The notes under the pieces are model-generated. The model did no database searches, was not told where the DNA came from, and saw only the letters and a list, made by a program, of their open reading frames with translations. Shown here one piece after another: positions 847 to 18,824 of a stretch of 36,155 nucleotides of DNA (the first letter of the stretch is position 1; each line of letters opens with the position of its first letter). Origin of the DNA: Boseongicola sp. (GTDB lineage Bacteria; Pseudomonadota; Alphaproteobacteria; Rhodobacterales; Rhodobacteraceae); NCBI GenBank assembly GCA_028824715.1, contig JAPPCV010000026.1, positions 1-36,155 of the forward strand. Reading direction: 5' to 3'. Position numbers and translations under genes: made by a program.

Positions 847-1075
847 TGGGTGCTGCCTTCGAACCATAAGGCAGTCTCGGCGCATCCGATCAAACCCATT
901 TCAAGGTCCAATCGCCCAGCCCATGCATGCCGCTTCCGACGCTTCGCCTGACACCTCGCGATGTCCGACGCACGGCTCGCGGTGAAAGTGGTGGTTAGCC
1001 TTTCCTTCCTGCGGGACTTTCACCCGCTGCACTCACGCCTGTTGACCTTGCGCACCCTATGTTGGGTTCAGGCCA
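847..1075. other. Inserted non-coding stretch inside the ISKra4 element
   Basis: I see no convincing coding sequence here. The stretch lies between the point where transposase homology ends (about 771) and the stop codon of the minus-strand membrane gene. It belongs to the foreign DNA that separates the two halves of the ISKra4 transposase. No second set of insertion-sequence ends could be recognised at its left border. Confidence 0.4.
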
Positions 1076-2717: not shown

Positions 2718-3857
2718 ATGTCTGACCGCACGAAACTCAATACGCCAGGCGCCAGTCGATGGACGCGCCGAAGAGTCCTCGGCACCGCCGGCAAAGGATT
2801 GGCGCTCGGCACCACGGCACTGGCCGCACCGTGGCTGCTTCCCGGTCGCGCCTCCGCGCAGGCAAGCGAAGTGAACGTGCTCGCATTTGGGGGATACGAA
2901 GAGCCCGGAATGCTCGACGCGTTCCAGGAAAACACCGGAATCAAGGTCAACCTCAAGATTCACGACGGATCGGACGAGGAGATGGTAGCCCTCGTCCGCT
3001 CTTCTCCGGCTGGAACGTTTGACATCATCACGCCGACAAGCGCCTACGTGCCGCGGGCGGCGCGAGACGGACTGCTGCTTGAACTCAATCCGGGCGACTA
3101 TCCCCTGGACGACTACTTCGAGATTATTGCCAACTGGCCGCCGTGCTACGTCGATGGCAAGATGTACGGTCTTGTGAACCGCTTCGGCTACTACGGCATC
3201 ACGTACAACCACGAGAAGTTCTCCGAGGACGATGTCGCAAGCTACTCTGTCCTGTGGGACAGCGCCGTATCGGGCCGCGTCGCGCTCTTCGACTGGTTCC
3301 TGCCCAACATGGGCTGCCTTTCGAAGTTCAACGGCAACCCGCAACCCTATGACCTTGACGCCGCTGCCTTCGGCGCACTCGTCGACCGTCTTGCGAGTCT
3401 GCGTCCGCAGGTCGGCCTGGTCGGCAACACGTCGCAGGTCATCCAAGCGATGGCCGGGGGCAGTTACGACCTCGCAATCGCCGGAGAATGGGTTCAGGCC
3501 GGAATGTACGACGACGGTCTTCCATTCAAGGCGCGAGTGCCGAAGGAAGGTGGCGTGACTTGGGACCAGGCCGTTTGTATCGCAGCAAACACGCCGCGCA
3601 TGGAAAACGCCGTCAAGTTTGTGCAGTACGTGGCCGGGCCAGGGTTCCAGTCCATGCTGGCAATCGCAAAGACCTACTACAGCATGGTCCCGAACAAGAA
3701 GGCCGCGGAACTTCTGCCTGACGACAAGCGCGAATTGCTAAACCTGGTGGACCTCGACCGGTTCGACGAGGTGTTCATGGCCAACCTGTCGCCCAGGAAA
3801 GATCCTGACAACAGGCAGGAATGGCTTGATGCCTGGGAGAACTTCAAGAACCTCTGA
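2718..3857 (+). CDS. PotD-like periplasmic substrate-binding protein of a polyamine-type ABC importer
   Basis: The 379-residue product starts with a Tat-type signal: RRR at 17-19, followed by VLGTAGKG, a hydrophobic stretch and an ASA-type cleavage site near residue 48. The mature part resembles group 1 extracellular binding proteins of the spermidine/putrescine class, with VNVLAFGGYEEP, TFDIITPTSAYVPR, YGLVNRFGYYGITYN and YDLAIAGEW as characteristic segments. It would deliver its ligand to the PotB- and PotC-like permeases (5284 and 6167) and the PotA-like ATPase (10602). A GGAGG ribosome site precedes the ATG. The ligand is not predictable. The neighbours point to an amine or amide compound rather than a simple polyamine. 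Confidence 0.88.
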   Translation: MSDRTKLNTPGASRWTRRRVLGTAGKGLALGTTALAAPWLLPGRASAQASEVNVLAFGGYEEPGMLDAFQENTGIKVNLKIHDGSDEEMVALVRSSPAGTFDIITPTSAYVPRAARDGLLLELNPGDYPLDDYFEIIANWPPCYVDGKMYGLVNRFGYYGITYNHEKFSEDDVASYSVLWDSAVSGRVALFDWFLPNMGCLSKFNGNPQPYDLDAAAFGALVDRLASLRPQVGLVGNTSQVIQAMAGGSYDLAIAGEWVQAGMYDDGLPFKARVPKEGGVTWDQAVCIAANTPRMENAVKFVQYVAGPGFQSMLAIAKTYYSMVPNKKAAELLPDDKRELLNLVDLDRFDEVFMANLSPRKDPDNRQEWLDAWENFKNL

Positions 3858-3919: not shown

Positions 3920-5290
3920 ATGAGCAATGCACGGAGAATAGAACCGGGTATGGCAATCATTGACTGTTCGCAGTGCATGGAGCCGCATTGGCTTTGGCCG
4001 AGCTACCCGTTCGTGTCACAGTCCTACTATCGCGGCGACGAATTTCAGGAATTCGGTTACAGGTGGCGCGGCAGCGGGTTCAGCTTCACATCTGCCCCGG
4101 GATGGCGAATTCGCGGCGGAAAACGGCTCGACGACTATCCTTTGCAGATGTTCGCCGGCGTTGCGCAAGTCCTCGACGTCTCCGCTTCGGAAACGATCGA
4201 CGAAGCGGTGATCGCATCAAGTTGCTCTGGCGGGCCCGATCGAAACATACTTGTCCTGAGGAGCGGACATGCGGAGTCGGTTCACAATCGAAAGCCGGAC
4301 TACTGGCGGAACGCGCCCCGGATATCACCCGGTTGCGCTGCGGAAATCTCGAGGGCCGGATTCACGCATGTGGCAGTGGACCTGTCCTGTGACAACATCC
4401 CGGCCAGCCGTCCTGGAGGCGAAGGTGGATACAATAACCACAACGAGCCTTTCCGTGCCGCGCTCCACGCCGAAGGGCTGCTGCTGACCGAGAACTGCGC
4501 CGACCTCGGCGCCATCGAGAACGAAGAGGTCTTTTTCGTTGCGTTGCCGATTTCCCTTCCGGACAGTGCCACCGCGCCATGCCGGCCGATCGCGATGAGT
4601 TCTTGGCCGTCCGATACGCCCCGTATCGTCGACCTGTCGGTCCCGCTCTTCAATCACTGGCGATGGAGAATCGATGTCCGCCAGGGGAGGAGTTTTGCCG
4701 CAGGCGACGACGCGGAGGAAACCCATTTCCTGATCACCGGACATGGCTTTACCCATTGCGATGCACCATGCCACATGCGGAAAGGCGGCGCGACGATCCA
4801 GGATCTTCCGAACGAAGGGCTCGACCTGTTTGTCGGCGAAGCGGTCATTGCAGACTTTTCGGACCTGGAACTGCCTTTCCCGATTACGCAGTCGTTGCTG
4901 GCCGAGCGGCTTGGCGACCGTCTCCGTCCTGGCGACCGCCTGATCCTGCGCAGCGACCTGACGAACAGGCTCGGCTACGAAAGCCGGGAATGGCACATCA
5001 AGGCCCCGAACCTTGAACCGGACGCTGCCAAGTGGATCACATCCCGGAAACCAGCGGCGGTCTGCATCGACTTTCCACAGGACTACATTGCACGTGAAAT
5101 GCCGGTCAGGCATGTCTACAACGAGGAGTTCGTCACCCATCACGCTGTTTTCGCCGCTGGCATTCCTTTCGTCGAGGACCTGAGGGATCTCGGTCGCCTG
5201 CACGCGGAGCGCCCCTTTCTGGTGGCCGTGCCTCTGAAGTCGACTTGCGTGGACGGTGCCCCCATGCGTGCCGTGGCACTCGAATGGTAG
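3920..5290 (+). CDS. Tandem cyclase-family (kynurenine formamidase-like) hydrolase with degenerate N-terminal half
   Basis: The 456-residue product is about twice the usual length of the cyclase/metal-dependent hydrolase family, which cleaves formyl or cyclic amide bonds (kynurenine formamidase, isatin hydrolase). The C-terminal copy (from about 234) holds the metal-binding motif HxxTHxDxxxH at H275, H279, D281 and H285. It also has the usual ending FVEDLRDLG and FLVAVPLK. The N-terminal copy (about 12-226) keeps the fold landmarks (LLLTENCADLGAI, VFFVALPI), but the aligned segment at 51-62 has S52, F56, S58 and W62 in place of all four ligands. It likely acts as a non-catalytic partner domain. 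M11 (base 3950) is an alternative start. The stop overlaps the next gene by 7 bases. Substrate inferred to be an amide or formamide. Confidence 0.8.
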   Translation: MSNARRIEPGMAIIDCSQCMEPHWLWPSYPFVSQSYYRGDEFQEFGYRWRGSGFSFTSAPGWRIRGGKRLDDYPLQMFAGVAQVLDVSASETIDEAVIASSCSGGPDRNILVLRSGHAESVHNRKPDYWRNAPRISPGCAAEISRAGFTHVAVDLSCDNIPASRPGGEGGYNNHNEPFRAALHAEGLLLTENCADLGAIENEEVFFVALPISLPDSATAPCRPIAMSSWPSDTPRIVDLSVPLFNHWRWRIDVRQGRSFAAGDDAEETHFLITGHGFTHCDAPCHMRKGGATIQDLPNEGLDLFVGEAVIADFSDLELPFPITQSLLAERLGDRLRPGDRLILRSDLTNRLGYESREWHIKAPNLEPDAAKWITSRKPAAVCIDFPQDYIAREMPVRHVYNEEFVTHHAVFAAGIPFVEDLRDLGRLHAERPFLVAVPLKSTCVDGAPMRAVALEW

Positions 5291-6165
5291 GCACCGTCGA
5301 AACCGTGCGAGAAACATCCGTCCGTCGACGTGCGCCTGTGGCCAACCTGTGGCACGGTATCCTTCCTGCCGTAATCCTCATGGCCGGGTTCTTTGTCGTA
5401 CCAATCGGTTACACCGTCGGCCTCAGTTTCACCGGTGCCGATCACGGCGGGCTGACGCTGTCCAACTACGTGACCTTCTTCACGAACGACCGATTCACGG
5501 ACGCGCTTGTGCGTAGCGTCCTGCTGGCATCTGCCGCGGTCGTGCTCGCGTCCGTCATTGCATACCCGCTGGCGTGGTTCCTGACTTACGCGGCACACCC
5601 GCGGCGACGGTTCCTGTTGCTGTTCCTGCTGATCGCTCCGTTCTGGACAAGTTTCACGATTCGCGCATTTTCCTGGCAACTCGTGCTGTCTGACAGCGGT
5701 GTCATCGCGTTCGCACTGACCAAGGTCCTCGGCCAACCCGTCGCGCTCGGGTTTCTCTATACCATGTCTGCCTCGGTCTTCGGCCTGGCATTGTTCGGCA
5801 TCATGCTGATGACACTGACGATATTCAGCGTGATGGTCACCATCGATCCTCGTCTTCTCGAAGCGAATCGGGATCTTGGAGGCAGTGAGTGGCGCGGCTT
5901 CCTTGAGATCGTACTGCCCCTGAGCCTCCCCGGCTGGATCATCGGCGCCGTGCTGACATTCATCATTTGCGTCGGTGACTACGCCGTGCCGACCCTCCTC
6001 GGCGGTGGATTCAAACCGGTCCTTGCGCAATTGATGCTGAGCACGCTGAAGGGGACCTACGATCTGCCGATGGCCGCGACATTTGCCGCAGTCCTGATGG
6101 GCGTGGTGTTGGTTTCCGCCCTGCCGCTTGCGCTGGTTCGCCGCCAGGTCCGCCTGCAGGCATGA
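5284..6165 (+). CDS. PotB-like ABC transporter permease
   Basis: This inner-membrane subunit has 293 residues and about six hydrophobic segments. It carries the ABC-permease coupling loop (EANRDLGGSEWRGFLEIVLP), which docks on the ATPase. I prefer the ATG at 5284, which overlaps the upstream TGG-TAG end by 7 bases, over the longer form from 5245, because the extra 13 residues are arginine-rich and out of character. It pairs with the PotC-like permease that starts one base after its stop. Segments such as LTFIICVGDYAVPTLLGGG are typical of the PotB branch. Confidence 0.9.
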   Translation: MVGTVETVRETSVRRRAPVANLWHGILPAVILMAGFFVVPIGYTVGLSFTGADHGGLTLSNYVTFFTNDRFTDALVRSVLLASAAVVLASVIAYPLAWFLTYAAHPRRRFLLLFLLIAPFWTSFTIRAFSWQLVLSDSGVIAFALTKVLGQPVALGFLYTMSASVFGLALFGIMLMTLTIFSVMVTIDPRLLEANRDLGGSEWRGFLEIVLPLSLPGWIIGAVLTFIICVGDYAVPTLLGGGFKPVLAQLMLSTLKGTYDLPMAATFAAVLMGVVLVSALPLALVRRQVRLQA

Positions 6166-6166
6166 C

Positions 6167-6967
6167 ATGGTGAGCACGGTCCGCAAGAAAGCATACGACC
6201 GCTGGTTCGTACTTCTGTTCGCTGCAGTCGCGGCGACCATCTATCTGCCGATCGTCGTCATGGCCGTGTTCTCTTTCAACAGTGGCCGGTACCAGGTCAT
6301 GCCGTTTCGGGAATTCACGCTGGCGTGGTTCGGGCGCGTGTTCCGCGATGCACAGTATTTCTCCGGACTGATGAACAGCATCACCGTCGCGTCGGCCGTA
6401 AGCGTTTCCGCAACAGTCATCGCGTTCCTGTGTGCGTACTCGCTCGTCAATGCACGGTTCCCGGGAAAGACGGTGGTCACGCTGTTCGTCCTGGCGCCGC
6501 TCGCCGTGCCACTGATTCTCATCGGAATCGGTTTGCGGCTGTATTTCGTCTCCGTCGGCCTCGAACCCTCGTTGGCGCTGGTTTATGCGGGGCAGGTCCT
6601 CTACGTGTTGCCACTGGCCGTACTGAACCTTCGCAACCGGATTGCACAGATCCCGAAGAGTCACGAAGAGGCTGCCTGGGCCCTAGGTGCGTCGCGGCTA
6701 CGCGCCATTCTCGAAATCGTCCTGCCATCCTGCCGCTTTGCCATCGTCGCGACTCTGATCATCACCTTTACCTTTGCCTTTGACGAGTTTGTCATCGCCT
6801 ATTTCCTGACCAATTTCTCCATCACGCTGCCCATCAAGATCTGGACGACCCTGGTGACCGGATTCGATCCGGCAATCAATGCCATCGGCGTCATGGTATT
6901 CGGCTTTTCCATGGCGCTTGGCATCGCTGCTCAGGCCCTCTTCATGCGGAAGGACCAGCGGAAATGA
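6167..6967 (+). CDS. PotC-like ABC transporter permease
   Basis: This is the second membrane subunit of the polyamine-type importer, 266 residues. It carries VMAVFSFNSGR near the N-terminus and the coupling-loop motif EEAAWALGASRLRAILEIVLP. The GDYAV of PotB is replaced by FAFDEFVIAYFL, as usual for PotC. The ATG at 6167 follows the upstream stop by one base. The reading frame extends upstream to 6128, but that would overlap potB. Its TGA overlaps the next ATG (ATGA), so translation is probably coupled to the aminotransferase. Confidence 0.9.
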   Translation: MVSTVRKKAYDRWFVLLFAAVAATIYLPIVVMAVFSFNSGRYQVMPFREFTLAWFGRVFRDAQYFSGLMNSITVASAVSVSATVIAFLCAYSLVNARFPGKTVVTLFVLAPLAVPLILIGIGLRLYFVSVGLEPSLALVYAGQVLYVLPLAVLNLRNRIAQIPKSHEEAAWALGASRLRAILEIVLPSCRFAIVATLIITFTFAFDEFVIAYFLTNFSITLPIKIWTTLVTGFDPAINAIGVMVFGFSMALGIAAQALFMRKDQRK

Positions 6968-8079
6968 ACCTACGTCTTCGCAGATCCCCGACCCTCGCGC
7001 TGGCAGGGGAGATCGCATCGGCGCGCCTCACCGGCGAGACGGTTTATTCGCTCAGCACGCCGACTTTTCCGGATCGCACCGGCTCGATTGCCGCCGACAT
7101 CCGGTTCGGGACCACTCTGACGCCCGGCAACGGTCTCGCGGATCTGCGGGACCTGGCGCGAACGGGCCTGTTCAAGAAGTGGAAACTTCCCGAGCACGAG
7201 TGCTTGATCGTTGGCGGAGCGAAATCCTCGATCTTCTGCATCATTCGCACCATGCTGCCCGCCGGTGGAAAGGTGCTCGTGATTTCGCCGCATTGGCCAA
7301 GCTACGAGGACCTAGTCAGACTGGCGCATCTCCAGCCGGTGTTCCACGAAACCCGCGCCGACGACGGTTTCGAGATCGACGAATTTCGTTTGCGAGAGTC
7401 CTTGCGCGAGTCCGGGGCAGGTGCCGTCATGTGCAGCAATCCCGGCAATCCGAGCGGACGGGTGCTCGGGCAACGCGAACTCGACACGCTTTGCCGGGAG
7501 ACCGCAGATGCAGGGGCCATCCTCCTTCTCGACGAGAGTTTCTCGAACATTGTTTTCGACGTTCCGAAATGGCACGATTCGGTGTGTTCTCCGGAGGATC
7601 ACGTCTTCGTCGTCAATTCCTTTTCGAAAAACTACCATCTCCAGGGCTTGAGGCTGGGCGCATGCCTCGTGCACCGCGGCAGAACCGCACCGGTGATCGC
7701 CGCCCACCAGACCCTGCTCAGCGCCGCACCGACACCGAGCCAGAACATCGCCCTGCGGATCATCAACTCACCGGAGGCAAATCCAGAGAGCTACTCCGAG
7801 CAGCGGCGGCTCATGCTCGACTTCGCAGTGGCGCAGGGCTGGCCTCATGTGGCAACGGAGGGCGGGTTCTATCTGTTTCCGTATGTGGAATGTTTGGCAT
7901 CGTTTCGCCGGAAGCTGGAGGCCCGCCGGATCCTGTCCCTGCCCGGCGAGACCTTCGGCAAGGGATATCGCGATCACCTCAGGGTCTGCTTCGGAAAACC
8001 GGTTTCCGAGATTCGCGCTTTGCTGGGAATTCTCGCCGAAATTGCGGACGAATCGCCGGAGATGGATCGTGGGCGCTGA
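6964..8079 (+). CDS. Class I/II PLP-dependent aminotransferase
   Basis: The 371-residue product has fold type I aminotransferase motifs: SNPGNPSG at 158-165, the PLP-ring aspartate D190 in LLLDESF, and the Schiff-base lysine K222 in NSFSKNYHLQGLRLG. LRVCFG near the C-terminus is probably the substrate-carboxylate arginine region. The protein is near the lower end of the family's length range. It starts on the ATGA overlap with the permease gene, so it is part of the same transcription unit, and it may act directly on the imported compound or its hydrolysis product. The aromatic residue usual after the PLP aspartate is replaced (ESFSN). Substrate unknown. Confidence 0.87.
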   Translation: MNLRLRRSPTLALAGEIASARLTGETVYSLSTPTFPDRTGSIAADIRFGTTLTPGNGLADLRDLARTGLFKKWKLPEHECLIVGGAKSSIFCIIRTMLPAGGKVLVISPHWPSYEDLVRLAHLQPVFHETRADDGFEIDEFRLRESLRESGAGAVMCSNPGNPSGRVLGQRELDTLCRETADAGAILLLDESFSNIVFDVPKWHDSVCSPEDHVFVVNSFSKNYHLQGLRLGACLVHRGRTAPVIAAHQTLLSAAPTPSQNIALRIINSPEANPESYSEQRRLMLDFAVAQGWPHVATEGGFYLFPYVECLASFRRKLEARRILSLPGETFGKGYRDHLRVCFGKPVSEIRALLGILAEIADESPEMDRGR

Positions 8080-8080
8080 C

Positions 8081-9436
8081 ATGACACGCGCGGTGGTTTC
8101 GCCAAATGACGGGCGCGCATTTGCGCACTGGCGCCCGGATGCACCTGCCCATGCCGAACGGCTGCTGCAGCACCTCGCTCCGAGACGCCGGGCCCTGGCG
8201 GGCGATTGCCAGCTACGACGGGAGATCCTCGAAGGCTGCATCAAGGGACTGCAGTCCGCACGATCGGAACTGGTAGCGCTCGTGGTAAGGGAAGTGGGAA
8301 AGAAGCCCGGGGAAGCCGATGCCGAGATCGACTACGCGATTTCGTTCCTGGACCATTGCCTCGTCTTGCTGGACAACATTGAATTCGAGCAGACAATCGC
8401 GCCCGGCCGCCTTGTGACAGATGTGGGCCTGGGCGGCGCATTCCTGATCTGTCCGTTCAACGACCCCGTGGCAGGTCTGACACGAAAGATTGCACCCGCG
8501 ATCGCCGCCGGATGCCCGGTGATCGTCAAGCCCTCCTCTCTTGCGATGCTTTGCGCGCGTGCAATGTTCAGGGCGTTCCGGCAGGCAGGAGTCGGCAGCG
8601 AGGTCCAGCTGCTCGCGACCGGTGACCCCGAGCTTGCCGGTCGGGTGCTCAGGCACGATGAAATCGACATGGTCAGCTTCACCGGGTCCACCGCTGTCGG
8701 GCGTGAACTGGCAGCTGCATGCGCCGCCGGCGGCAAGAAGTCGGTCACGGAACTTGGGGGAAACTGTCCATTTTCCGTCTTCAGTGACGCCGATGTGGAC
8801 CGTGCTGTCAGGGACCTTCTTGACCGCAAGCTCAAGGCTGCCGGCCAGGCGTGTTCCTCCGTCAATCGCGTCTTCGTCGAAGAAGAAATCTACGCCGCAT
8901 TCAGGGAAAGGCTCCTGGAATGCGTCTCGGCAGTGACGGCGGGTCCCTCGGACCTCGGCGCAGATCTCGGCCCGGTACGGACACGAAAGGCAGCGGATGA
9001 ACTTGTTGATGTCGTGATCCGTGTAAGGGAGGACGGCGAGCGACTGTTGACGGCCGAACCGCACAAGGTCGGGGACGACAGTCCTTTCCTGTTTCCGCTG
9101 ACAGTGGTCGAGAGCGACCGTGACAGCTTCTTCGACCGGTACGAGACGTTTGGGCCACTGCTGTCGATCCGGCCCTTTTCCCGGCGGGAGGACCTGCTGG
9201 CACGCCTGTCATGCGAGCGTCACGCGCTGGCCGCCTATTTCTACACGGGTGCGCCGGACGCAATTCAGCCCCATCTCGGCGAAATGCGTTTCGGCAGCAT
9301 AGGGATCAATTCGACGGCCATACAGGGCGCGGAAGTTCCGACCGGAGGGTTCCGGGATGCTGGAATCGGTCGCGAAGGCGGCATCTGGGGAATGCGCGAG
9401 TTCTTGACCACGGTGAATTGCAGGCTCGGCGCGTAG
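8081..9436 (+). CDS. NAD(P)-dependent aldehyde dehydrogenase
   Basis: The product has 451 residues from the ATG at 8081. Family hallmarks are KPSS (K150), the Rossmann motif FTGSTAVG (200-207), the general base E224 in TELGG and the catalytic cysteine C258 in GQACSS. It would oxidise an aldehyde, possibly the semialdehyde made by a neighbouring aminotransferase. An in-frame GTG at 8069 has a better-spaced GGAG site (8058-8061) and would add four residues while overlapping the upstream gene by 11 bases. Either start is plausible. It is somewhat shorter than typical members (about 480), mainly at the N-terminus. The closest general resemblance is to succinate-semialdehyde dehydrogenases, without proof of substrate. 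Confidence 0.9.
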   Translation: MTRAVVSPNDGRAFAHWRPDAPAHAERLLQHLAPRRRALAGDCQLRREILEGCIKGLQSARSELVALVVREVGKKPGEADAEIDYAISFLDHCLVLLDNIEFEQTIAPGRLVTDVGLGGAFLICPFNDPVAGLTRKIAPAIAAGCPVIVKPSSLAMLCARAMFRAFRQAGVGSEVQLLATGDPELAGRVLRHDEIDMVSFTGSTAVGRELAAACAAGGKKSVTELGGNCPFSVFSDADVDRAVRDLLDRKLKAAGQACSSVNRVFVEEEIYAAFRERLLECVSAVTAGPSDLGADLGPVRTRKAADELVDVVIRVREDGERLLTAEPHKVGDDSPFLFPLTVVESDRDSFFDRYETFGPLLSIRPFSRREDLLARLSCERHALAAYFYTGAPDAIQPHLGEMRFGSIGINSTAIQGAEVPTGGFRDAGIGREGGIWGMREFLTTVNCRLGA

Positions 9437-9846: not shown

Positions 9847-10527
9847 TCAGCTCGAAACAGCATCCTCATGTTCGTCAAAGAACGCCATCGCCCGGTCCAG
9901 GTTTTCCAGGATGTGCTCTTGCGTCAGCCGCTTCGCGTCGGGAATGTTCCCGGCTTCAAGCTGGTGCAGGATTTCCTCGTGATAGTCGAGAGAACGGTGT
10001 GTCGGGAACGCCTCCTTCAGAAGCTTGTAGCGAATCGGCAGCGAAATCTCGTTCACGTAGTACAGGACCTGTGCGATCGGACGGTTTCCGGTGTAGTCGA
10101 TAATGCACTGATGATAGGTGCTGTTTTCGCGGAAATAGCCCTCGATGTCATTCGCCTTGTAGTAACCCTCCATGATCGCGCATCGTCCCCGCAACGCCTT
10201 GCACAGGGGATCGATGTCGAGGTCTGCCAGTGCGGCAATCACCATCCCCTCGAGCGTGGCGCGGAGTTGGTAGATGTTGCGGACGTCGTCCCGCGTCTCT
10301 TTCCGGACCCGGAACCCGCGCCGCGGCAGATGCTCCACGAGCCCGTTGCGCAGGAGAAGGCGCAGGCTCTCCCGCACCGGTCCCCTGCTGCTGCCGTAGT
10401 CGGCCTCCAGTTCCTGCTCCCGCAACGCCTGGCCCGGGGCGAGATCCCCGGTTATGATCCGCCAGCGCAGCTTGTTCAGGATGAAATAGGACAGCGTCTG
10501 CGGAAGGCTGTCGTTTTCGTAATACAC
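9847..10527 (-). CDS. GntR-family transcriptional regulator, FCD subfamily
   Basis: The 226-residue product starts with GTG. Residues 8-75 form a GntR winged helix (LALRE-type segment ALREQELEADYGSSRGPVRESL, then GLVEHLPRRGFRV). Residues 85-220 form an FCD ligand-binding domain with YQLRATLEGMVIAAL and the candidate metal/ligand histidines in TYHQCI, DYHEEI and EHI. FCD regulators usually respond to organic acids or amino acids and bind AT-rich palindromes. Position between the two halves of the cluster, divergent from the PotA-like gene, makes it the likely local regulator. Candidate operators are at 2638-2658 and 14488-14503. None is evident in its own 74-base promoter gap. Confidence 0.88.
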   Translation of the reverse strand: MYYENDSLPQTLSYFILNKLRWRIITGDLAPGQALREQELEADYGSSRGPVRESLRLLLRNGLVEHLPRRGFRVRKETRDDVRNIYQLRATLEGMVIAALADLDIDPLCKALRGRCAIMEGYYKANDIEGYFRENSTYHQCIIDYTGNRPIAQVLYYVNEISLPIRYKLLKEAFPTHRSLDYHEEILHQLEAGNIPDAKRLTQEHILENLDRAMAFFDEHEDAVSS

Positions 10528-10601: not shown

Positions 10602-11726
10602 GTGAGCGCGGCGAAGGATGTAGAACTGGACCGTGTATCGAAGTCATTCGGCACCATGCTGGCAGTCCGGCCCCTGTCACTGCATATCCGTGCCGGCGAA
10701 TTCCTGACGCTGCTCGGCCCATCCGGTTGTGGAAAGACGACCATGTTGCGCTTGATCGCGGGTCTGGAACAGGTGTCCGGCGGAACGATCAAGGTCGGTG
10801 GCGAAGACGTGACCGACCATCCGCCGAACCGACGCGATACGAGCATCATGTTTCAGGACTACGCACTCTTTCCGCACAAGACACTGCTTGAAAATGTGGG
10901 CTACGGCCTGAAGATGCGCGGCATCGACCGCACTGCCCGCGAGAGCCGCGCCCGGTCCTGGCTCGAAACGATCGGCCTTGCCGAATACGGGCAACGCCTC
11001 CCGCATCAGCTGTCCGGAGGACAGCGGCAGCGGGTTGCGCTCGCACGGTCATTGATTGTCGAACCAGGGGTTCTCCTCCTGGACGAACCTCTCGGTGCAC
11101 TGGATGCGAACCTTCGTCAGCAGATGCAGCGAGAACTGCGCCGCATGCATCGGGACGTGGGATTGACATTCATTTACGTGACACACGATCAGCAAGAAGC
11201 ACTCGCCATGAGCGACCGGGTAGCCGTTATGCGGGACGGCCGGATCGAGCAACTGGGTGACCCGGTCAACATATATGATTGCCCCGAAACCGAGTTCGTT
11301 GCGCGGTTCATCGGTGCCTGCAACGTCATCGTGGCGCGGGTGCGCAGGGCGACAGCTTCGGGGATCGAATGTGACGCCGACGGCCTCGCATCCCTGGTCG
11401 CACAGCCAGCGCCAGGTGGGAATTTGTATGGCGAAGGCGAGCGGATTGCCCTGGCGTTGCGGCCCGAGGCCATTTCGATCAGGTCTGGCGACCACGGGTG
11501 CGTGCCTGAGCGGAACGGAACGGCACTCGAGGTCAGGAGTGTCGAATTCACTGGAGCAACACTGAAAATTCAGGGGGTGTCTCCTGGCGGAAACATGCTG
11601 GATGTCGAGTTCGGACGCAGGACCCTGGATGACTGGCCGCCGCCAGTGCCGGGTGACCAGATCATCGCGGAATGGCGCGAGCCGGACTTGACGGTGCTGC
11701 GGAAATCAGCCCGAAACGGAGATTGA
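10602..11726 (+). CDS. PotA-like ABC transporter ATP-binding protein
   Basis: The 374-residue product contains Walker A GPSGCGKTT (39-47), signature LSGGQ (137-141), Walker B VLLLDEP (157-163) and the switch histidine H195. After residue 240 comes a TOBE-type C-terminal domain (IALALRPEAISI, ATLKIQG). It would energise the PotB/PotC-like permeases encoded 3.6 kb upstream, from which it is separated by catabolic genes and the regulator. It starts with GTG at 10602 and has no strong ribosome site. The following aminotransferase begins 4 bases after its stop. The second importer in this cluster lacks an ATPase, and this protein belongs to the wrong subfamily to serve it with confidence. Confidence 0.9.
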   Translation: MSAAKDVELDRVSKSFGTMLAVRPLSLHIRAGEFLTLLGPSGCGKTTMLRLIAGLEQVSGGTIKVGGEDVTDHPPNRRDTSIMFQDYALFPHKTLLENVGYGLKMRGIDRTARESRARSWLETIGLAEYGQRLPHQLSGGQRQRVALARSLIVEPGVLLLDEPLGALDANLRQQMQRELRRMHRDVGLTFIYVTHDQQEALAMSDRVAVMRDGRIEQLGDPVNIYDCPETEFVARFIGACNVIVARVRRATASGIECDADGLASLVAQPAPGGNLYGEGERIALALRPEAISIRSGDHGCVPERNGTALEVRSVEFTGATLKIQGVSPGGNMLDVEFGRRTLDDWPPPVPGDQIIAEWREPDLTVLRKSARNGD

Positions 11727-11730
11727 TGAC

Positions 11731-13038
11731 ATGACGAGGACCAAGCAGGTCCTTGGCACTACGCGCGTTCACGAGTCAAGCGCAGCCAATACCTTTCGTT
11801 TCACGGCGGAACCACCCGTCTTCCTCCGGGGAGACGGATCGTGGCTTTACGACGAACGGGGCCAGAAGTGGCTCGACCTTGTTTGCGGTTCCGCTACGAG
11901 CAACATCGGTCACAACCACCCTGCGCACATTGCGGCCTTGCAGGAAACACTTGCCACGGGGGTCCTGCACACCGGTACCAGGCTTCCTTCGCCCTTCCGG
12001 GCTCGGCTCTACGAAGAGCTGATCTCGATTCTGCCCGAGGAGTTGTCCTGCATCCAACTGGCGAATTCTGGTGCCGAAGCCGTCGAGGCCGCGATCAAGG
12101 CCGCACAATACGCGACCGGACGCAATCGTCTGGTTTCTTTCGAGGGCGGGTATCACGGGCGAACAGTCGGCGCGCTGTCGCTCACTGACGGTGGCAGCAT
12201 TCGTGAACCCTTCTCCGTGCTGCACGAACTCGTCGACTTCCTGCCTTATCCCGGTTCACGCGGGTCCGAAGGCGACGAGGTCGGTACCTGCCTCTCCCGA
12301 TTGTCGGACCGCCTGGACGAGCTGCGAAGAAATGACGACCTTCCCGCCGCCCTGGTGGTGGAAGCCATCCAGGGTGTCAGCGGTGTCCTGTCTCCGCCCG
12401 CGGAGTTTCTGTCCGGCATCAGGGACCTGACGCGCCGGCACGGGATCCAGATGGTCTGCGATGAAATCTGGTGCGGGTTCGGTCGTGCCGGGGCTTGGTT
12501 CTCCTTCGAAAGCACCGGCGTTGTCCCCGACATGGTCACCATGGGCAAGGCCATGTCAGGGGGATTGCCCTTGTCGGCCGTGGCTGCCCGTCCCGAGATT
12601 CTCAAGGCCTGGCCGCCCGGCATGCACACCAGCACGTTTCAGGGCAATCCTCTCGCCTGCAACATGGCAGTCGCGACCATACGGACGATCCGCGGGGACG
12701 ACCTGCTTGCACATGTCGAGCACACGGTTGAGCCCCTTCTCGAACGCTCCCTGCGCCCGCTTGACGCACTCGAACGCACCCGCGGCGTTCGCGTCGCGGG
12801 TGCACAGGCGGCGGTCGATGTCGTGGACGGGAATGGCTGTCCCGACCGGGCGACCGCCATTCGCGTACAGAGTGCCGCGCACTCCCGGCGCATCCTGATC
12901 TACCTGGGCGGCCGTTGCGGAAACTCCCTGATGTTCGTGCCACCGATCAACATCGATGGCGCACATCTGTCAGAGGGGCTGGGGGAAACCGTAGGGCTGA
13001 TCAAGCACGAACTCGGAACTGGAAGACAACATGTGTGA
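11731..13038 (+). CDS. Class III PLP-dependent aminotransferase (omega-amino acid type)
   Basis: The 435-residue product shows class III motifs: GHNHPA at 60-65, SGAEAVEAAIKAA (113-125), YHGRT (141-145), the PLP aspartate D244 in CDEIWCGFGRAG and the Schiff-base lysine K273 in TMGKAMSGG. Such enzymes move terminal amino groups (GABA, diamines, beta-amino acids) to 2-oxo acids and yield semialdehydes. This fits the aldehyde dehydrogenase of the cluster. It is visibly related to the C-terminal domain of the fusion at 16866, so the two are probably paralogues with different duties. Its stop overlaps the amidase start by 8 bases. Confidence 0.88.
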   Translation: MTRTKQVLGTTRVHESSAANTFRFTAEPPVFLRGDGSWLYDERGQKWLDLVCGSATSNIGHNHPAHIAALQETLATGVLHTGTRLPSPFRARLYEELISILPEELSCIQLANSGAEAVEAAIKAAQYATGRNRLVSFEGGYHGRTVGALSLTDGGSIREPFSVLHELVDFLPYPGSRGSEGDEVGTCLSRLSDRLDELRRNDDLPAALVVEAIQGVSGVLSPPAEFLSGIRDLTRRHGIQMVCDEIWCGFGRAGAWFSFESTGVVPDMVTMGKAMSGGLPLSAVAARPEILKAWPPGMHTSTFQGNPLACNMAVATIRTIRGDDLLAHVEHTVEPLLERSLRPLDALERTRGVRVAGAQAAVDVVDGNGCPDRATAIRVQSAAHSRRILIYLGGRCGNSLMFVPPINIDGAHLSEGLGETVGLIKHELGTGRQHV

Positions 13039-14476
13039 ACCCTGTGATCTCTCCGCCGTCGACGCCCGTGCGGCAATCGGTGCAAAGCAGCTTTCTCCTG
13101 TCGAACTGCTCGACAGCTGCATCGCAAGGATCGAACGACTCGATTCGGTGCTCAACGCGATTGTCATTCCGTGCTTCGAAAGGGCGCGGGTCGAGGCCGT
13201 TGCGGCAGAATCCGCCGTCATGAACGGCGAACCGCTCGGGAAGCTGCATGGCCTGCCGCTCGGCGTGAAGGATCTCAATGACCTCGCCGGGGTGAAGACC
13301 ACGCAGGGATCGCCGCTATACGAGGACTTCATCCCCGAGCACGACGACAACATCGTTGCCGCCATGCGCAGTGAAGGTGCCGTGGCCATCGGCAAGACCA
13401 ACGTCCCCGAGCACGGATTCGGTGCAACCACCGACAATCCGCTGTTCGGCGCGACCGGCAATCCCTACGATCCTGCACTCTCCGCCGGTGCGTCCACAGG
13501 CGGCGGCGCGGCGGCGCTTTCTGCACGAATGCTTCCTTTGGCGATGGGATCGGATTTTGCTGGAAGCCTGCGCACGCCCGCAGCCTTTTGCGGCATTTTC
13601 GGGATGAGGCCTTCGGCGGGGGCCGTGACCAGCACCCGTCGCGGTTTCGGCTGGTCGCCATTCGACGTCGAGGGTCCCCTCGCCCGATCGGCGGCCGACG
13701 CGAGGCTCCTGATGTCGGCAATGATGACCGAAGACAGCCGCGACCCACTGGCCTGGCCGTCCGGCACCGACTTCCTCGGGCCTGTTCGCGGAACGGATCT
13801 CTCCCGCCTCAGGGTTGCCGTTTCCGAGGACCTTGGCTTTGCACCGGTGAGCCAGGAAATGCGCACCGCATTCAGAAAAAAGCTCGGGGAATTCAGTCAT
13901 GTATTCGCCGATGTCAAGGACGCACATCCCGACATGCGCGATGCGGACCGGGCCTTCTACGTTCTGCGCGGAATCGGCTTCGTCCATGATTTCGGGAGGA
14001 TTCACGACGAAACCCCCGAAGCGCTTGGCCCAACGATCGTCGATGAACTCCAGCGGGCCGAGAAGATCTCCGTTGCCGACATCGGCTGGGCAATGGACGC
14101 CCAGACGCGGATCTACCTCGCCGCCGATGCATTCTTCGAGAGTCACGACCTGCTCATCACGCCGGCAACCTCCGTGCAGCCTTTCCCGCACGAGGAACTG
14201 TACCCGAAACACATCGACGGAGAGGACATGGGCGGCTACCTACGATGGGAGGCCATCTCCTATGGCGTCACGCTCTTCGCCGGACCCGCTGCCGTCATTC
14301 CCTGCGGCATTGGACCTGGCGGCATGCCCATGGCGCTGCAAGTCATATCCCGGGTGCGTTCCGATGCCTGGCTTCTGGATGTCGCCCATGCACTGGAGAC
14401 TGTCTTCGCTTCCATTCCGGCGCTGGAAACACAGAAGCCGGACCCGGAAGCCTGGAAAAAAGATGATGACAGATAG
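13031..14476 (+). CDS. Amidase signature-family hydrolase
   Basis: The 481-residue product has the Ser-cisSer-Lys triad of the amidase signature family: K80 in GVKDLND, S155 in GASTGGGAA and nucleophile S179 in DFAGSLRTPAAFCG. The second serine of the usual GGSSGG motif is threonine here, and its first GG is GA, mild departures that keep the triad. Family members hydrolyse carboxamides, some N-acyl amines and carbamates. The ATG overlaps the end of the aminotransferase gene, so the pair is probably translationally coupled. Together with the cyclase-family protein it suggests that an amide bond is cleaved in the pathway. GatA is unlikely because no gatB or gatC is nearby. Confidence 0.88.
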   Translation: MCEPCDLSAVDARAAIGAKQLSPVELLDSCIARIERLDSVLNAIVIPCFERARVEAVAAESAVMNGEPLGKLHGLPLGVKDLNDLAGVKTTQGSPLYEDFIPEHDDNIVAAMRSEGAVAIGKTNVPEHGFGATTDNPLFGATGNPYDPALSAGASTGGGAAALSARMLPLAMGSDFAGSLRTPAAFCGIFGMRPSAGAVTSTRRGFGWSPFDVEGPLARSAADARLLMSAMMTEDSRDPLAWPSGTDFLGPVRGTDLSRLRVAVSEDLGFAPVSQEMRTAFRKKLGEFSHVFADVKDAHPDMRDADRAFYVLRGIGFVHDFGRIHDETPEALGPTIVDELQRAEKISVADIGWAMDAQTRIYLAADAFFESHDLLITPATSVQPFPHEELYPKHIDGEDMGGYLRWEAISYGVTLFAGPAAVIPCGIGPGGMPMALQVISRVRSDAWLLDVAHALETVFASIPALETQKPDPEAWKKDDDR

Positions 14477-14503: not shown

Positions 14504-14576
14504 ACTGGAGCCAATTGGCGTTGTTCGCCTTTGTCCGCATGACCGGGGCGCAATCACGAAAAGAAGGAGAAAAGTC

Positions 14577-15419
14577 ATGTCAGTATTCCGCACGGCCAAG
14601 CGTTCAACAGCAGCACTCCTTGCCGGATTTGCTGTGACGATCCTGACCGTCGTTCAGCCCGCCGCCGACACGCTAGATGAAATCAAGTCGCGCGGCCATT
14701 TCGTCTTTGGTCTGGAAGTTGGATACAAGCCGTTCGAATTCCGCGACGAGAACAACGAAATCGTCGGTTACGACATCGACGTGGCCAACGAAATCGGAAA
14801 GCGGCTGGGCGTCGAGGCACGCCCGCAGGGAACCAACTGGGCAACGGTCATACAGACGCTTTATGACGGCGGATTCGATCTCATCCTTGGCGGGATGACC
14901 GCCACGGAGAAGAGATACCAGCGCGTTAACTTTTCGATCCCCTACATGGACGCGAGTTCGGGCCTGCTGGTCATGAGCAACAGCGGAATCATGGGCCGCA
15001 GCGAATTGGGAGGCAAAACCGTTTCGGCCGGTGCCGGAACGCCGCAGATCAACCAGTTGAAGCTGTCGGCTGAGGAACTGGGCTTCGAATACTCGGGAGA
15101 GATCAAGACCTACGATTCGGATGCCGTCGCCTATGAAGCGATGCGGGTCGGACGAATTGATGCCTACGCTTCAACGATCGTGAGCCTGCTTGAGTTTGCG
15201 AAGACCACCGAAGACTTCGACGTGCTTCCATTCGCGTCCGACATGTGGGAACAGGAATGGACGGCCATGGCGTTCCGGAAAGAGGACGAAACGCTTCGGG
15301 CCGCATTCAACGAGGCAATCCGGGACATGAAGGCAGACGGAACGCTTGCAGCCCTTCAGGAAAAATGGTTCGGAAAGTCGTTCGTCGATTTGCTGAGCGA
15401 CGAGGCGCCCACCTGGTAG
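14577..15419 (+). CDS. Family 3 periplasmic binding protein of a polar amino acid ABC importer
   Basis: The 280-residue product has a Sec signal peptide (basic RTAKR, then STAALLAGFAVTIL, cleavage near the QPA at about 25). The mature protein has typical family 3 segments: FGLEVGYKPFEFRDENNEIVG, GYDIDVANEIGKRLG, DLILGGMTATEKR and LQEKWFG. It would bind an amino acid or related zwitterion in the periplasm. An AAGGAG site lies 8 bases before the ATG at 14577. Two cognate permeases follow at 15525 and 16213. A palindromic operator candidate lies upstream. Confidence 0.9.
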   Translation: MSVFRTAKRSTAALLAGFAVTILTVVQPAADTLDEIKSRGHFVFGLEVGYKPFEFRDENNEIVGYDIDVANEIGKRLGVEARPQGTNWATVIQTLYDGGFDLILGGMTATEKRYQRVNFSIPYMDASSGLLVMSNSGIMGRSELGGKTVSAGAGTPQINQLKLSAEELGFEYSGEIKTYDSDAVAYEAMRVGRIDAYASTIVSLLEFAKTTEDFDVLPFASDMWEQEWTAMAFRKEDETLRAAFNEAIRDMKADGTLAALQEKWFGKSFVDLLSDEAPTW

Positions 15420-15524: not shown

Positions 15525-16208
15525 GTGGATGTTGCCTACATGCTCGACGCGCTCCCAAGGCTCCTTCCGGCGTTTTGGGTGACAATCGAGGTCAGCGCGA
15601 TTTCCCTCGCGCTGGCCATGCTCTTGGGCCTGAGTTGCGGTACCGCCCGTGCATTCCTGGCAAAGCGCAATCCCCTGACCTGGCTCATGGACGCCTATGT
15701 CGGGCTTGTACGCTGCACCCCAATTATCGTTCAAATCTATGCCGCCTATCTCCTGCTGCCAAAGATCGGCATGCGGCTCGACGTCTTCTGGATCGGTGTC
15801 ATCGCACTGACTTTCAATTCCGCGGGATACCAGATCGAGATCGCCAGAGCTGCCGTCCAGTCCATCAGCAAGGGGCAGACAGAAGCGGCAACGTCGCTCG
15901 GCCTTGGGTGGTGGCACACGATCCGGCTCGTCGTCTTGCCGCAGGCTTTCAAGCGCATGATACCCGCAGTAACCAATGAAATGTCCCACCTTGTGAAGGC
16001 ATCTGCCGTCTTGTCGGTCATTTCGCTCTTCGAACTCCACAAGGCCGCGACCGCACTGCAGGCCACCAGCTTCAAGTTCGTGGAGCTGCTCGCCGTACAG
16101 GCCATGCTCTACTTGCCTCTCATCCTTGGCGTCAGCCGCATCGCAAGATACCTGGAGACTGATGTCTTCGGATTCGAGGGCAAGACTGAAACCGTGGACA
16201 TCCGCTAG
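15525..16208 (+). CDS. Polar amino acid ABC transporter permease (HisQ/HisM type), first subunit
   Basis: This 227-residue inner-membrane protein starts with GTG. It has several hydrophobic segments and the His/Glu/Gln/Arg permease motifs LVRCTPIIVQIY and AATSLGLGWWHTIRLVVLPQAF, the latter being the ATPase coupling loop. It forms a heterodimer with the next gene product, which starts 4 bases after its stop. The GTG is supported by the family-typical N-terminus (LDALPRLLPAFWVTIEVS) directly behind it. No cognate ATPase gene is present in the window. Confidence 0.88.
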   Translation: MDVAYMLDALPRLLPAFWVTIEVSAISLALAMLLGLSCGTARAFLAKRNPLTWLMDAYVGLVRCTPIIVQIYAAYLLLPKIGMRLDVFWIGVIALTFNSAGYQIEIARAAVQSISKGQTEAATSLGLGWWHTIRLVVLPQAFKRMIPAVTNEMSHLVKASAVLSVISLFELHKAATALQATSFKFVELLAVQAMLYLPLILGVSRIARYLETDVFGFEGKTETVDIR

Positions 16209-16212
16209 CGCC

Positions 16213-16866
16213 ATGAATGTTCTCGATATCCAGTTCATGCTCGAGATCCTGCCGAAAATGCTGTTTGCGGCTCTGGTCACCCTTGAGATTTCCGTGCTGG
16301 CGGTCGTTTTCAGCATTGCCCTCGGCATCCTCCTCACGACCTGGAAGCTGCTCGGCGGGAAGGTCTCTGGTGCCCTGATTCAGGCGTTCGTCGAGTTTAC
16401 GCGGGGCGTGCCGCAGCTGGTACAGATCGCGATAATCTACTTCGCGCTTCCGCGCTTCGGCGTTGTCCTGAACGAATTCTGGACCGGTGTGGTCGCTCTG
16501 ACGTTCATCGGTGCCGGCTACGCCATAGAGATCATTCGGGGTGCGGTCGAGAGCCTCGACAGGGGACAGCGCGAAAGCGCCATTGCGCTAGGATTGAGCG
16601 AATTGCAAACCCTCTTCCTCGTGCTCTATCCGCAGGCAGCACGCCGCATCCTGCCACCACTGACCAATGAACTCGCGAATGTCATCAAGGCGTCGGCACT
16701 CCTGTCCGTTATTTCGGTAAACGAGCTGACCAAGGTCGCGAACGACATCATTTTCGAGTATTTTGTCGTGATCGAAGTCTTGATTGAACTGGCAGGGCTA
16801 TACATCGTCATCATCGGTGGCCTGATATGGCTTTCGCGCGCGCTTGAGAAACGGACACGGGCCTGA
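16213..16866 (+). CDS. Polar amino acid ABC transporter permease, second subunit
   Basis: The 217-residue product is homologous to the preceding permease. It carries FTRGVPQLVQIAIIYFALP and the coupling loop AIALGLSELQTLFLVLYPQAARR. The ATG at 16213 follows the preceding stop by 4 bases. Longer versions of the frame from 16126 overlap the first permease and are unlikely. Its TGA shares one base with the ATG of the fusion gene, so transporter and fusion enzyme are translated together. Confidence 0.88.
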   Translation: MNVLDIQFMLEILPKMLFAALVTLEISVLAVVFSIALGILLTTWKLLGGKVSGALIQAFVEFTRGVPQLVQIAIIYFALPRFGVVLNEFWTGVVALTFIGAGYAIEIIRGAVESLDRGQRESAIALGLSELQTLFLVLYPQAARRILPPLTNELANVIKASALLSVISVNELTKVANDIIFEYFVVIEVLIELAGLYIVIIGGLIWLSRALEKRTRA

Positions 16867-18824
16867 TGGCAGGCGATGTTGCGGCAGTCGGGCTGCTCTG
16901 GCCCTCCGACGGTCGCAATGACCGCGAATTCTGGCGCTGGTTGCCGAAGAACATTTCTCTCCTGGTTGCCCGCTACCAGGTCGGGGGAAACCTCGACCTC
17001 GAACAACTCGAGCGGGATGGCGACTTGGAAGTTCTGACAAGGGCTGCCTGTCTGCTGCATCAAGCCCGGCCGGACGTGATTGGACTGGCTGACTGCGCCG
17101 CCGGGATTGTGGGCGGTGCGACGGCGGAACTGGCAAAGATGCAGGCAATCGAAGATACAACCGGCATCCCGGTCGTCTCCATGAGCATCTCGCTTGTGAA
17201 GGCCATTTTGCATCTCGGGGCAAGACAGGTAGCTGTTCTCTCCCCCTACGGTGCCGACGTCTCCGAGAGACTCAGTCTCTTTCTGTCCGGGTACGGCCTC
17301 GAAGTGGTGCAAAGCCACGTCCTGTCCTGCGGTGACGAAGCGTCGATCGATGCAATGACTGACGCCGATTGGCTGAGGTTCTCACGTCTTGCCGATAGCA
17401 CCTCCGCGCAAGCACTCTTGGTTGCCGGTGGTGGCGCAAGCCTGTTTCCGGTTGTGGAAGAGATGGAAGCGCTTCTCGACAAACCTGTCGTATGCGGGCC
17501 GGGTGCGCTGATTTGGGATGCATTGGCGCAAATCGGCGTTGCCGATTCGCGCACCGGGTGCGGCACGCTTTTTCGCGAGCGTGCCACAACGAAACACCAT
17601 CAGTTGCCCTTCTCCCTGGATCCGCTGTTGTCGAGCGCGATGAAGACCTACGTCGTCAGTGCTTCGCCGCCGGTGATTTCCGGTGGCGCCGGTTCATGGC
17701 TGCTCGATTCCCGAGGCAGGCGCTACCTGGACTTTGCATGCGGATCCGGCACGACGAACCTCGGCCACAACCATCCCGCAATCATGGACGCAGTGGAAAC
17801 CCAGTTGAACAGTGGGTTGGCGCATGTCGGTCCGCACTTCCTCAGCGATGAGCAGGTCAGGCTCTACCGACTGCTGCGGCAAGCATTGCCGGAGAACCTT
17901 GGACGGTTTCATCCGGCGACCAACGGAACAGAGGCTACGGAGACCGCGCTGAAGGCGGCAATGCATTTTACCGGCAAGCGCCGTTTCCTCGCATTCGAGG
18001 GCAGCTACCATGGACGCACCATCGGCGCGCTGGCAGTGTCGGAGAGCAAGGGACGCAACCGGGCCCTCGGTCCGCTCCTGCCTGACACCATTTTTGCACC
18101 GTACGGCTGCCCACCGGATCGACTGGAGCGAATGATCGATAGCGCGCAGCCGCTGGCGGGGATTGTTGTGGAGCCGGCCCAGGCCACGCGTGGCATGATC
18201 TTCCCTGCAAAGGGCTGGCTGCGGAAGCTGGCGAATCTCGCGGCAGCCCGCGAAATCCCGCTGATTGCCGACGAGGTCTTCACCGGGCTCGGGCGGACAG
18301 GACATCTCTTTTCGTTCATGGGCGAAGACTTCGTGCCGGACCTTCTAGTTCTCGGAAAGGCATTCGGTGGCGGTTTTCCAGCGGGGCTGGTCGCCGGGCG
18401 TGACGACATCATGACCACGTGGCTGCCAGGGACCCAGTCGTCGACATTCCAGCTTCATCCCGTTTCGGCCGCCGCCGCCCGAGCCTCGCTGGAGTACACT
18501 GTGACGAATGAAGTGCCCGAAATGGCCAGCCGCATCGCGCGATGGATCTCTGTACACAGTGCAATGCTCGTCGATTTTCCGTTCGTTGCGGACATTCGCG
18601 GCCGCGGCGCGATGTTCGGTGTGGAAATCGCCGACGATGCCGGTGCCCCAGACCATGATCGGTCGAGAGCCATTCGCGCAGACGCGCTCGAGCACGGACT
18701 GATTACCTGGGAGTGTGGTTCGTCCGGCCATGTCATTGGGATTGTCCCGCCATTGACGATTTCCGAACGTGAAATAGCCCAAGGTTTCGATCTGTTGCGC
18801 AAATCCTTCGCTCGGGTCCGGTGA
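16866..18824 (+). CDS. Fusion protein: Asp/Glu racemase-superfamily domain plus class III aminotransferase
   Basis: The 652-residue product has two enzyme domains. Residues 1-240 resemble the Asp/Glu racemase superfamily, especially the maleate isomerase/arylmalonate decarboxylase branch. They carry a cysteine C77 in DVIGLADCAAGIVGG, a GIPVVSMSISLVKAL-like segment and GPGALIWDAL. The second catalytic cysteine expected near 187 is alanine (LLVAGGGAS). Residues 255-650 form a complete class III aminotransferase with GHNHPA (300-305), NGTEATETALKAA (353-365), YHGRT (381-385), D469 in ADEVFTGLGRTG and PLP lysine K498 in VLGKAFGGG. The frame is open throughout, with no internal ribosome site that I can see at the domain border. 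It overlaps the permease stop by one base. I know of no characterised protein with this arrangement. Reaction unknown: isomerisation, racemisation or decarboxylation followed or preceded by transamination. Confidence 0.87.
   Translation: MAGDVAAVGLLWPSDGRNDREFWRWLPKNISLLVARYQVGGNLDLEQLERDGDLEVLTRAACLLHQARPDVIGLADCAAGIVGGATAELAKMQAIEDTTGIPVVSMSISLVKAILHLGARQVAVLSPYGADVSERLSLFLSGYGLEVVQSHVLSCGDEASIDAMTDADWLRFSRLADSTSAQALLVAGGGASLFPVVEEMEALLDKPVVCGPGALIWDALAQIGVADSRTGCGTLFRERATTKHHQLPFSLDPLLSSAMKTYVVSASPPVISGGAGSWLLDSRGRRYLDFACGSGTTNLGHNHPAIMDAVETQLNSGLAHVGPHFLSDEQVRLYRLLRQALPENLGRFHPATNGTEATETALKAAMHFTGKRRFLAFEGSYHGRTIGALAVSESKGRNRALGPLLPDTIFAPYGCPPDRLERMIDSAQPLAGIVVEPAQATRGMIFPAKGWLRKLANLAAAREIPLIADEVFTGLGRTGHLFSFMGEDFVPDLLVLGKAFGGGFPAGLVAGRDDIMTTWLPGTQSSTFQLHPVSAAAARASLEYTVTNEVPEMASRIARWISVHSAMLVDFPFVADIRGRGAMFGVEIADDAGAPDHDRSRAIRADALEHGLITWECGSSGHVIGIVPPLTISEREIAQGFDLLRKSFARVR

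Follow-up and report, generated by a model that had tools for sequence, protein, structure and literature searches.

The 36,155-nucleotide stretch of Boseongicola sp. DNA analyzed here, contig JAPPCV010000026.1 of assembly GCA_028824715.1 (the window), carries a gene (16866..18824, + strand) in which a single frame of 652 codons, ATG to stop, joins a domain of the arylmalonate decarboxylase (AMDase) and maleate isomerase fold to a class III pyridoxal phosphate (PLP) enzyme. The architecture recurs in three other genomes among conserved neighbors, the N-terminal (N) domain has lost both catalytic cysteines of its superfamily, and the C-terminal (C) domain keeps its PLP-site motifs. Our best reading of these sequence comparisons is that the fusion would be an undescribed two-part enzyme in an undescribed locus, and we lean, with some reserve, towards a catabolic two-domain enzyme of a conserved locus, with halves that act on the same or neighboring metabolites. 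A literature search of open-licence papers found no publication on this architecture, and none of the titles or abstract openings that it returned names it; the title and the start of the abstract of PMC6328768 likewise name no such fusion. With this family comes a recurrent domain architecture, built on a well-studied cofactor-free fold whose catalytic cysteines are replaced by Asp and Gly. Its natural split and fused versions permit a direct test of what the tether contributes, and the shared gene set offers a concrete, testable handle on a catabolic pathway.

Architecture and recurrence

No stop interrupts the 652 codons. The N domain (residues 1-236; 16866..17573, +) matches the Pfam family Amdase PF17645 over residues 45-236 (82.3 bits, cut-off 25.9) and Asp_Glu_race PF01177 over residues 73-218 (32.3 bits, cut-off 31), and by profile and fold it belongs to the AMDase/maleate isomerase branch of the Asp/Glu racemase superfamily. 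An interdomain linker of 18 residues (237-254; 17574..17627, +) leads to the C domain (residues 255-652; 17628..18821, +), a fold type I protein that matches Aminotran_3 PF00202 over residues 270-646 (282.3 bits, cut-off 30.5); profile, PLP lysine and motifs place it among the class III PLP enzymes. Frame and Pfam matches confirm an earlier note on this DNA, which had proposed from the sequence alone a racemase-superfamily domain joined to a class III domain in one 652-codon frame. In each of the 13 blocks of 50 codons, GC content is higher at codon position 3 than at position 2, which is a weaker sign, from noisy blocks, that the junction is no frame error.

An AlphaFold2 model of the whole fusion protein, made from a 44-row alignment, has a mean predicted local distance difference test score (pLDDT) of 84.6 and a predicted template modeling score (pTM) of 0.61, with residues 250-267 below a pLDDT of 50; residues 1-258 modeled alone reach 90.7 and 0.90, respectively. 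As predicted, the fusion is two confident domains joined by a loose tether, in a model that does not fix the domain-to-domain placement. The first two PDB matches of the N domain in Foldseek are maleate cis-trans isomerase 4fq5 (E 5.0e-20), the best, and AMDase 3dg9 (E 1.4e-19), both with a template modeling (TM) score of 0.83 on the query. The fold is shared with Bordetella bronchiseptica AMDase (3dg9, 2vlb; root-mean-square deviation 1.7 for 3dg9) and with maleate cis-trans isomerases (4fq5, 2xec), although identity to the latter is only 20-23% in the fold alignments and both of their cysteine positions are altered. All 50 matches listed in the whole-model fold search bear titles of class III-fold PLP enzymes or of scaffolds derived from one.

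The count of genomes assessed for recurrence stands at 1975, and one genome may fall in more than one sample. Whole-protein queries were run on 385 genomes of the class, eight of the genus, and then 4, 1 and 16 genomes around matches, and the N-domain query on samples of the order (390 genomes), the phylum (398), the order of genome G852 (397) and the order of genome G1027 (375). A first scan of genome contigs with the N domain as sole query gave no matches. Besides the window, full-length fused frames were found in G1146 (662 residues) and in G1297 and G1789 (669 residues each, same genus); these three are alphaproteobacteria of two further genera and families. In a fourth genus, G1145 and G1240 each have two adjacent genes for the halves, which differ in frame and have an intervening stop; the genes overlap by 8 bases in G1145 (26 if an earlier ATG is the start) and lie 1 base apart in G1240. 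The family hence comprises six members in six genomes, four fused and two split, each with shared neighbors. The earlier note had named a fusion confined to this assembly, with relatives encoding two proteins, as grounds for giving up its reading: two relatives are indeed split, but fusions also occur outside this assembly, in other genera and with the same neighbors (G1297, G1789 and G1146), the upstream permease genes included. Apart from a remnant in G773, the other hits listed are single-domain matches of at most 39% identity. Inspection for an adjoining class III match covered six of the long-frame N-domain matches among those listed, all outside the family, and none was found alongside them (G1254, G540, G504, G645, G470 and G715).

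From Phe236 or its equivalent to the LSS/LST motif that opens the C domain there are 18 residues in the window and 19 in G1297, G1789 and G1146. The junction is not a frame error, because the full-length fusions of these three genomes are open across the same junction. The N domain of the window is 50 and 48% identical to the split forms and 32-34% identical to the other fusions, and the C domain 63 and 61% and 52%, respectively; across the six members, 51 N-domain residues are invariant. Both domain trees unite the six in a supported group with two branches, the window and the split forms in one and the other three fusions in the other. Because both trees show this division, the halves have a common history at that level. 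As the origin of the split state, a single fusion followed by fission would fit the linker lengths, but two fusions are equally costly on the tree.

The congener G773 holds only a truncated remnant, C-domain residues 369-652 plus a cut amidase. Its two matches to the window run from 2956 (where the compared stretch ends) to 13636 at 91% and from 17973 at 86%. In its draft assembly (L075 9319-9328) the 4.3 kb between the two matches is absent and the matches overlap by 10 bases, with the amidase now beside the C domain. The ratio of nonsynonymous to synonymous substitution rates (dN/dS) between window and G773 is 0.096 over the 284 shared C-domain codons. Six other congeners gave matches of at most 38% identity.

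Catalytic positions of the two domains

The N-domain alignment covers 82 homologs, 80 from a contig scan and two from other genomes; the scan pattern lies elsewhere in the protein and therefore does not select for the catalytic positions. Both of these are Cys in 79 of the 82 homologs, and three (L129, L156 and L158) have neither. In all six family members the first position is Asp76 (codon 17091..17093, +) and the second Gly188 (17427..17429, +). The cofactor-free cysteine chemistry assumed in the earlier note fails, because Asp76 and Gly188 replace both cysteines, and by alignment the N domain is not a two-cysteine enzyme of the Asp/Glu racemase superfamily. An excerpt of PMC4996985 gives Cys188 as the only proton donor of AMDase and position 74 as the site of the second cysteine in the racemases of the family. 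By alignment these are Gly188 and Asp76 in the fusion, the latter against a Gly74 in AMDase itself, whereas the dioxyanion-hole Tyr of AMDase (Y126 in the same excerpt) aligns with Y128. The AMDase chains compared are also single-domain, unlike the fusion. The N domain falls below the arylmalonate decarboxylase equivalog NF052327 (78.5 bits, cut-off 225), in addition to having Gly188 rather than Cys.

Three cysteines were considered as stand-ins and rejected. C77, one residue off, is Cys in three members and His in the other three while D76 is invariant. C210 lies within VVCGPG, which reads VITGPG in the split forms and AVPATA in the other fusions, and a Cys at 189 is present only in G1297 and G1789. 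Residues invariant in all six members include W12, P13, D15, G16, N18, D19, E21, R36, D76, S126-P127-Y128, G188 and G190. Asp76 is a candidate acid/base of the domain.

EutA of hydroxyectoine catabolism gives a weak profile match (TIGR02990, 72.6 bits, cut-off 318), and the N domain is no EutA equivalog. An excerpt of PMC5924519 describes EutA genes among importer and catabolic genes, with an aminotransferase gene within or beside them. Unlike the fusion, 12 of 13 relatives examined carry both cysteines, and the seven of those that were scanned match EutA best, below its cut-off.

In the C domain, the expected PLP Schiff-base lysine is K498 (18357..18359, +), as the earlier note had picked it: residue 498 is the Lys of VLGKAFGGG, which aligns with the AKALGGG region of PDB matches. 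The PLP lysine, NGTEA, YHGRT, DEVFTG and SSTFQ are invariant in all six members. Fold, PLP lysine and PLP-site motifs are shared with gamma-aminobutyrate (GABA) transaminase, acetylornithine transaminase and alpha-amino-epsilon-caprolactam racemase (2zuk). Unlike these class III enzymes, the fusion has an AMDase-fold domain in front and lacks the Glu and Arg of 6j2v, as the aligned EPIQGEGG reads EPAQATRG (Thr441) and VIRLLPP reads VIGIVPP (Gly625); both replacements are invariant in all six members, and Gly625 also stands against the Arg of 1vef. We take the Glu/Arg pair to be the gate that lets GABA transaminase accept both the amino acid and 2-oxoglutarate. With the pair lost, the C domain may differ from these transaminases in acceptor and reaction. 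The domain lacks the Glu of EPxQGEGG and the Arg of VIRxxPP that mark transaminases of the GABA/acetylornithine type, and on this alignment 'aminotransferase' is a family name for it. None of the 25 NCBIfam transaminase models listed of 71 attains its cut-off, the best being PRK08117 (281.1, cut-off 574). In the tree, the sister clade of the C domain (support 88/94, below the starred level) contains AT1, a second class III PLP enzyme of the window (PF00202; 11731..13038, +), and by alignment AT1 likewise lacks the Glu/Arg pair.

Proposed function and rival explanations

In the catabolic enzyme that we favor, the ATP-binding cassette (ABC) importers encoded nearby would bring in an amino-acid-like or polyamine-like compound, and the class III PLP domain would handle the amine of that compound or of an intermediate. 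The tethered AMDase/maleate-isomerase-fold domain would bind the metabolite that the PLP domain handles, or its immediate precursor or product, and carry out a proton-transfer step (isomerization, epimerization or decarboxylation) with Asp76 replacing the cysteine pair. The join would hold the two activities at 1:1, with separate halves staying adjacent, overlapping or nearly touching. We infer a catalytic N domain, related metabolites for the two halves, a catabolic locus and this kind of substrate. More tentatively, and with less confidence than in the general proposal, the family may be a cysteine-free, Asp76-dependent branch of the AMDase/maleate isomerase fold that works only with a class III PLP partner lacking the Glu/Arg gate, fused or encoded by a touching gene, in a two-step conversion of an undescribed alphaproteobacterial catabolic pathway.

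Several observations weigh against the favored proposal. Loss of both cysteines might leave the N domain non-catalytic, and the C domain is without the Glu/Arg pair of the aligned transaminases. Only four genomes carry the fusion, the window departs from the other fusions in gene layout outside the core that they share, and no NCBIfam equivalog listed for the scanned neighbors reaches its cut-off. Linkage of the two kinds of gene is also not general, because a class III gene turns up in only 12 of the 82 homolog loci, a set with many short loci.

Ten of these 12 loci are from Caldilineaceae, and in nine of the ten the Amdase-like gene lies 3' of the class III gene. The match ends of these pairs are 55-154 bases apart, and their Amdase-like genes are more than 60% identical to that of L081, which has the first Cys but Asp in place of the second. 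In L084 (Thermococci), a class III gene lies directly 3' of an Amdase-like gene with both cysteines. These pairings in other lineages speak for the favored proposal. The class III gene of L112 lies on the opposite strand, more than 5 kb off. Separately, L081 2729-10762 (Caldilineaceae) encodes PhyH, an M20 deacylase, a 2-hydroxyacid dehydrogenase, a class III enzyme, two Amdase-like proteins and an FAA hydrolase. A Mesorhizobium plasmid match (H1; L076 5944-9343, 90% query cover) was rejected as a fusion, as it consists of a class III gene, a phosphotransferase gene and an Amdase-like frame in a row; that last frame is missing from the listed annotation.

A somewhat unlikely alternative, which overlaps with the favored proposal, is that the C domain is a class III-fold racemase, epimerase or lyase, so that the fusion pairs two stereochemical or eliminating steps. 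Alongside GABA and acetylornithine transaminases, the domain finds alpha-amino-epsilon-caprolactam racemase (1.2e-52) and a broad amino-acid racemase (7.7e-50) in the PDB, the 6j2v Glu/Arg pair is replaced in all six members, and the class III gene beside the Amdase-like gene of L084 exceeds the leucine/methionine racemase cut-off (859.6, cut-off 800). However, the tree places the C domain with AT1 and not with the L084 gene, the best NCBIfam models for the fusion are transaminase families, though below cut-off, and the fusion keeps R384 of YHGRT where caprolactam racemase has YHGCT. The roles that we assign to the Thr441, Gly625 and R384 positions are presumed from work on GABA transaminase.

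It is unlikely, and a little less probable than a racemase or lyase, that the N domain binds a ligand or acts allosterically without being catalytic, controlling the PLP domain or presenting substrate to it, so that the enzyme has one active site. The loss of both catalytic cysteines in all six members fits this, and 4ix1, titled a hypothetical protein and among the top fold matches, also lacks the cysteine pair by alignment. On the other hand, the polar set D15, N18, D19, E21, D76 and Y128 is invariant in members down to 32% identity, which would suggest catalysis, and in the split genomes, where the N half is a protein of its own, these residues persist.

We consider it improbable that the fusion is an expression convenience only, with two catalysts on one chain, no channeling and no common substrate. 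Split relatives among the same neighbors and a tether predicted to be disordered are what such an arrangement would show, but the pair is kept together in both fused and split forms, and unrelated lineages keep such genes adjacent. A sequencing or assembly artefact that deleted a stop near residue 245 is scarcely credible: the window genome is a 181-contig draft and its closest relatives by sequence, G1145 and G1240, are split, but the artefact is rejected because the fusion is open and full-length in three other genomes, with linkers of almost equal length.

Gene neighborhood

Judged from its gene content, the locus holds parts of two ABC importers, a second class III PLP enzyme, a class I aminotransferase-like protein, an aldehyde dehydrogenase, an amidase and a cyclase-family hydrolase. 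Directly upstream of the fusion, all on the + strand, are AT1, an amidase-signature hydrolase (13031..14476; PF01425; homologs in five of six loci compared, shortened in G773), a family 3 (amino-acid type) substrate-binding protein (14571..15419; PF00497), and two permeases of the HisM/GlnP type, permease 1 (15525..16208; PF00528, TIGR01726) and permease 2 (16210..16866, start approximate; longest frame from 16126). The stop of permease 2 and the ATG of the fusion share one base (TGATG), the overlap that the earlier note had reported. Further upstream, also on the + strand, are a PotD-like substrate-binding protein (2718..3857; PF13416; PDB matches to polyamine binders), a cyclase-family hydrolase with two matched stretches (3920..5290; PF04199; homologs in G773, G1297 and G1146), two PotB/PotC-like permeases (5245..6967, as 5245-6165 and 6128-6967; PF00528), a class I/II aminotransferase-like protein (6964..8079; PF00155), an aldehyde dehydrogenase (7847..9436 as longest frame, true start probably near 8072; PF00171) and a PotA/PhnT-type ABC ATPase (10602..11726; homologs in four of six loci compared). 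A divergent GntR/FCD regulator (9847..10527, -; PF00392, PF07729) is found in the G773 and G1145 loci and absent from the compared stretches of G1297, G1146, G1789 and G1240.

Six other loci (G773, G1145, G1240, G1297, G1146 and G1789) were compared with the window, in which the shared gene set amounts to 14 genes. G1145, G1297, G1146 and G1789 share one gene order, namely amidase, family 3 binding protein, permease 1, permease 2, (ATPase), N domain, C domain; in G1240 only the permeases and the two halves are seen, on a contig that starts within permease 1. A His-type ATPase gene lies immediately 5' of the fusion in G1297, G1789 and G1146. The window, G1145 and G1240 have no His-type ABC ATPase gene at this place, where permease 2 directly adjoins the N domain; the PotA-like ATPase may serve both importers. 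Past the fusion, G1297 and G1146 have the aldehyde dehydrogenase and the class I aminotransferase on the opposite strand and, beyond the latter, the PotD-like protein, cyclase, PotB/C-like permeases and PotA-like ATPase, adjoining an AT1 homolog. In G1789, the aldehyde dehydrogenase and class I aminotransferase are followed by a piece of the PotD-like gene and the contig end.

The two binding proteins match amino-acid and polyamine binders in the PDB, none singling out one ligand, and the amidase has no match at 1e-50. In the family 3 binding protein, aligned with four homologs, KR(Y/F) before VNFS and the Thr in YASTIVSLLE are kept in all five sequences. We take this Thr to stand where amino-acid binders hold the amine with an Asp. 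As a lead, this may point to a ligand that has a carboxylate and lacks an ordinary alpha-amine.

Two known pathways were considered and rejected. For hydroxyectoine catabolism, the EutA and EhuA/B/C/D models all score below cut-off, and none of the Pfam matches expected of eutB, C, D or E was found among the neighbors scanned. For aminoethylphosphonate use, hinted at by the PhnR and PhnT models, the models are below cut-off and no phosphonate-cleaving enzyme was found among the Pfam-scanned neighbors.

Two minor observations concern other parts of the window. The cyclase-family protein (3920-5290, 456 residues) has HGFTHCDAPCH in its second half, and its first half seems, by eye, to be without the motif. 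At 799-1020 (-) there is a group II intron D1-D4-6 match of 137.3 bits.

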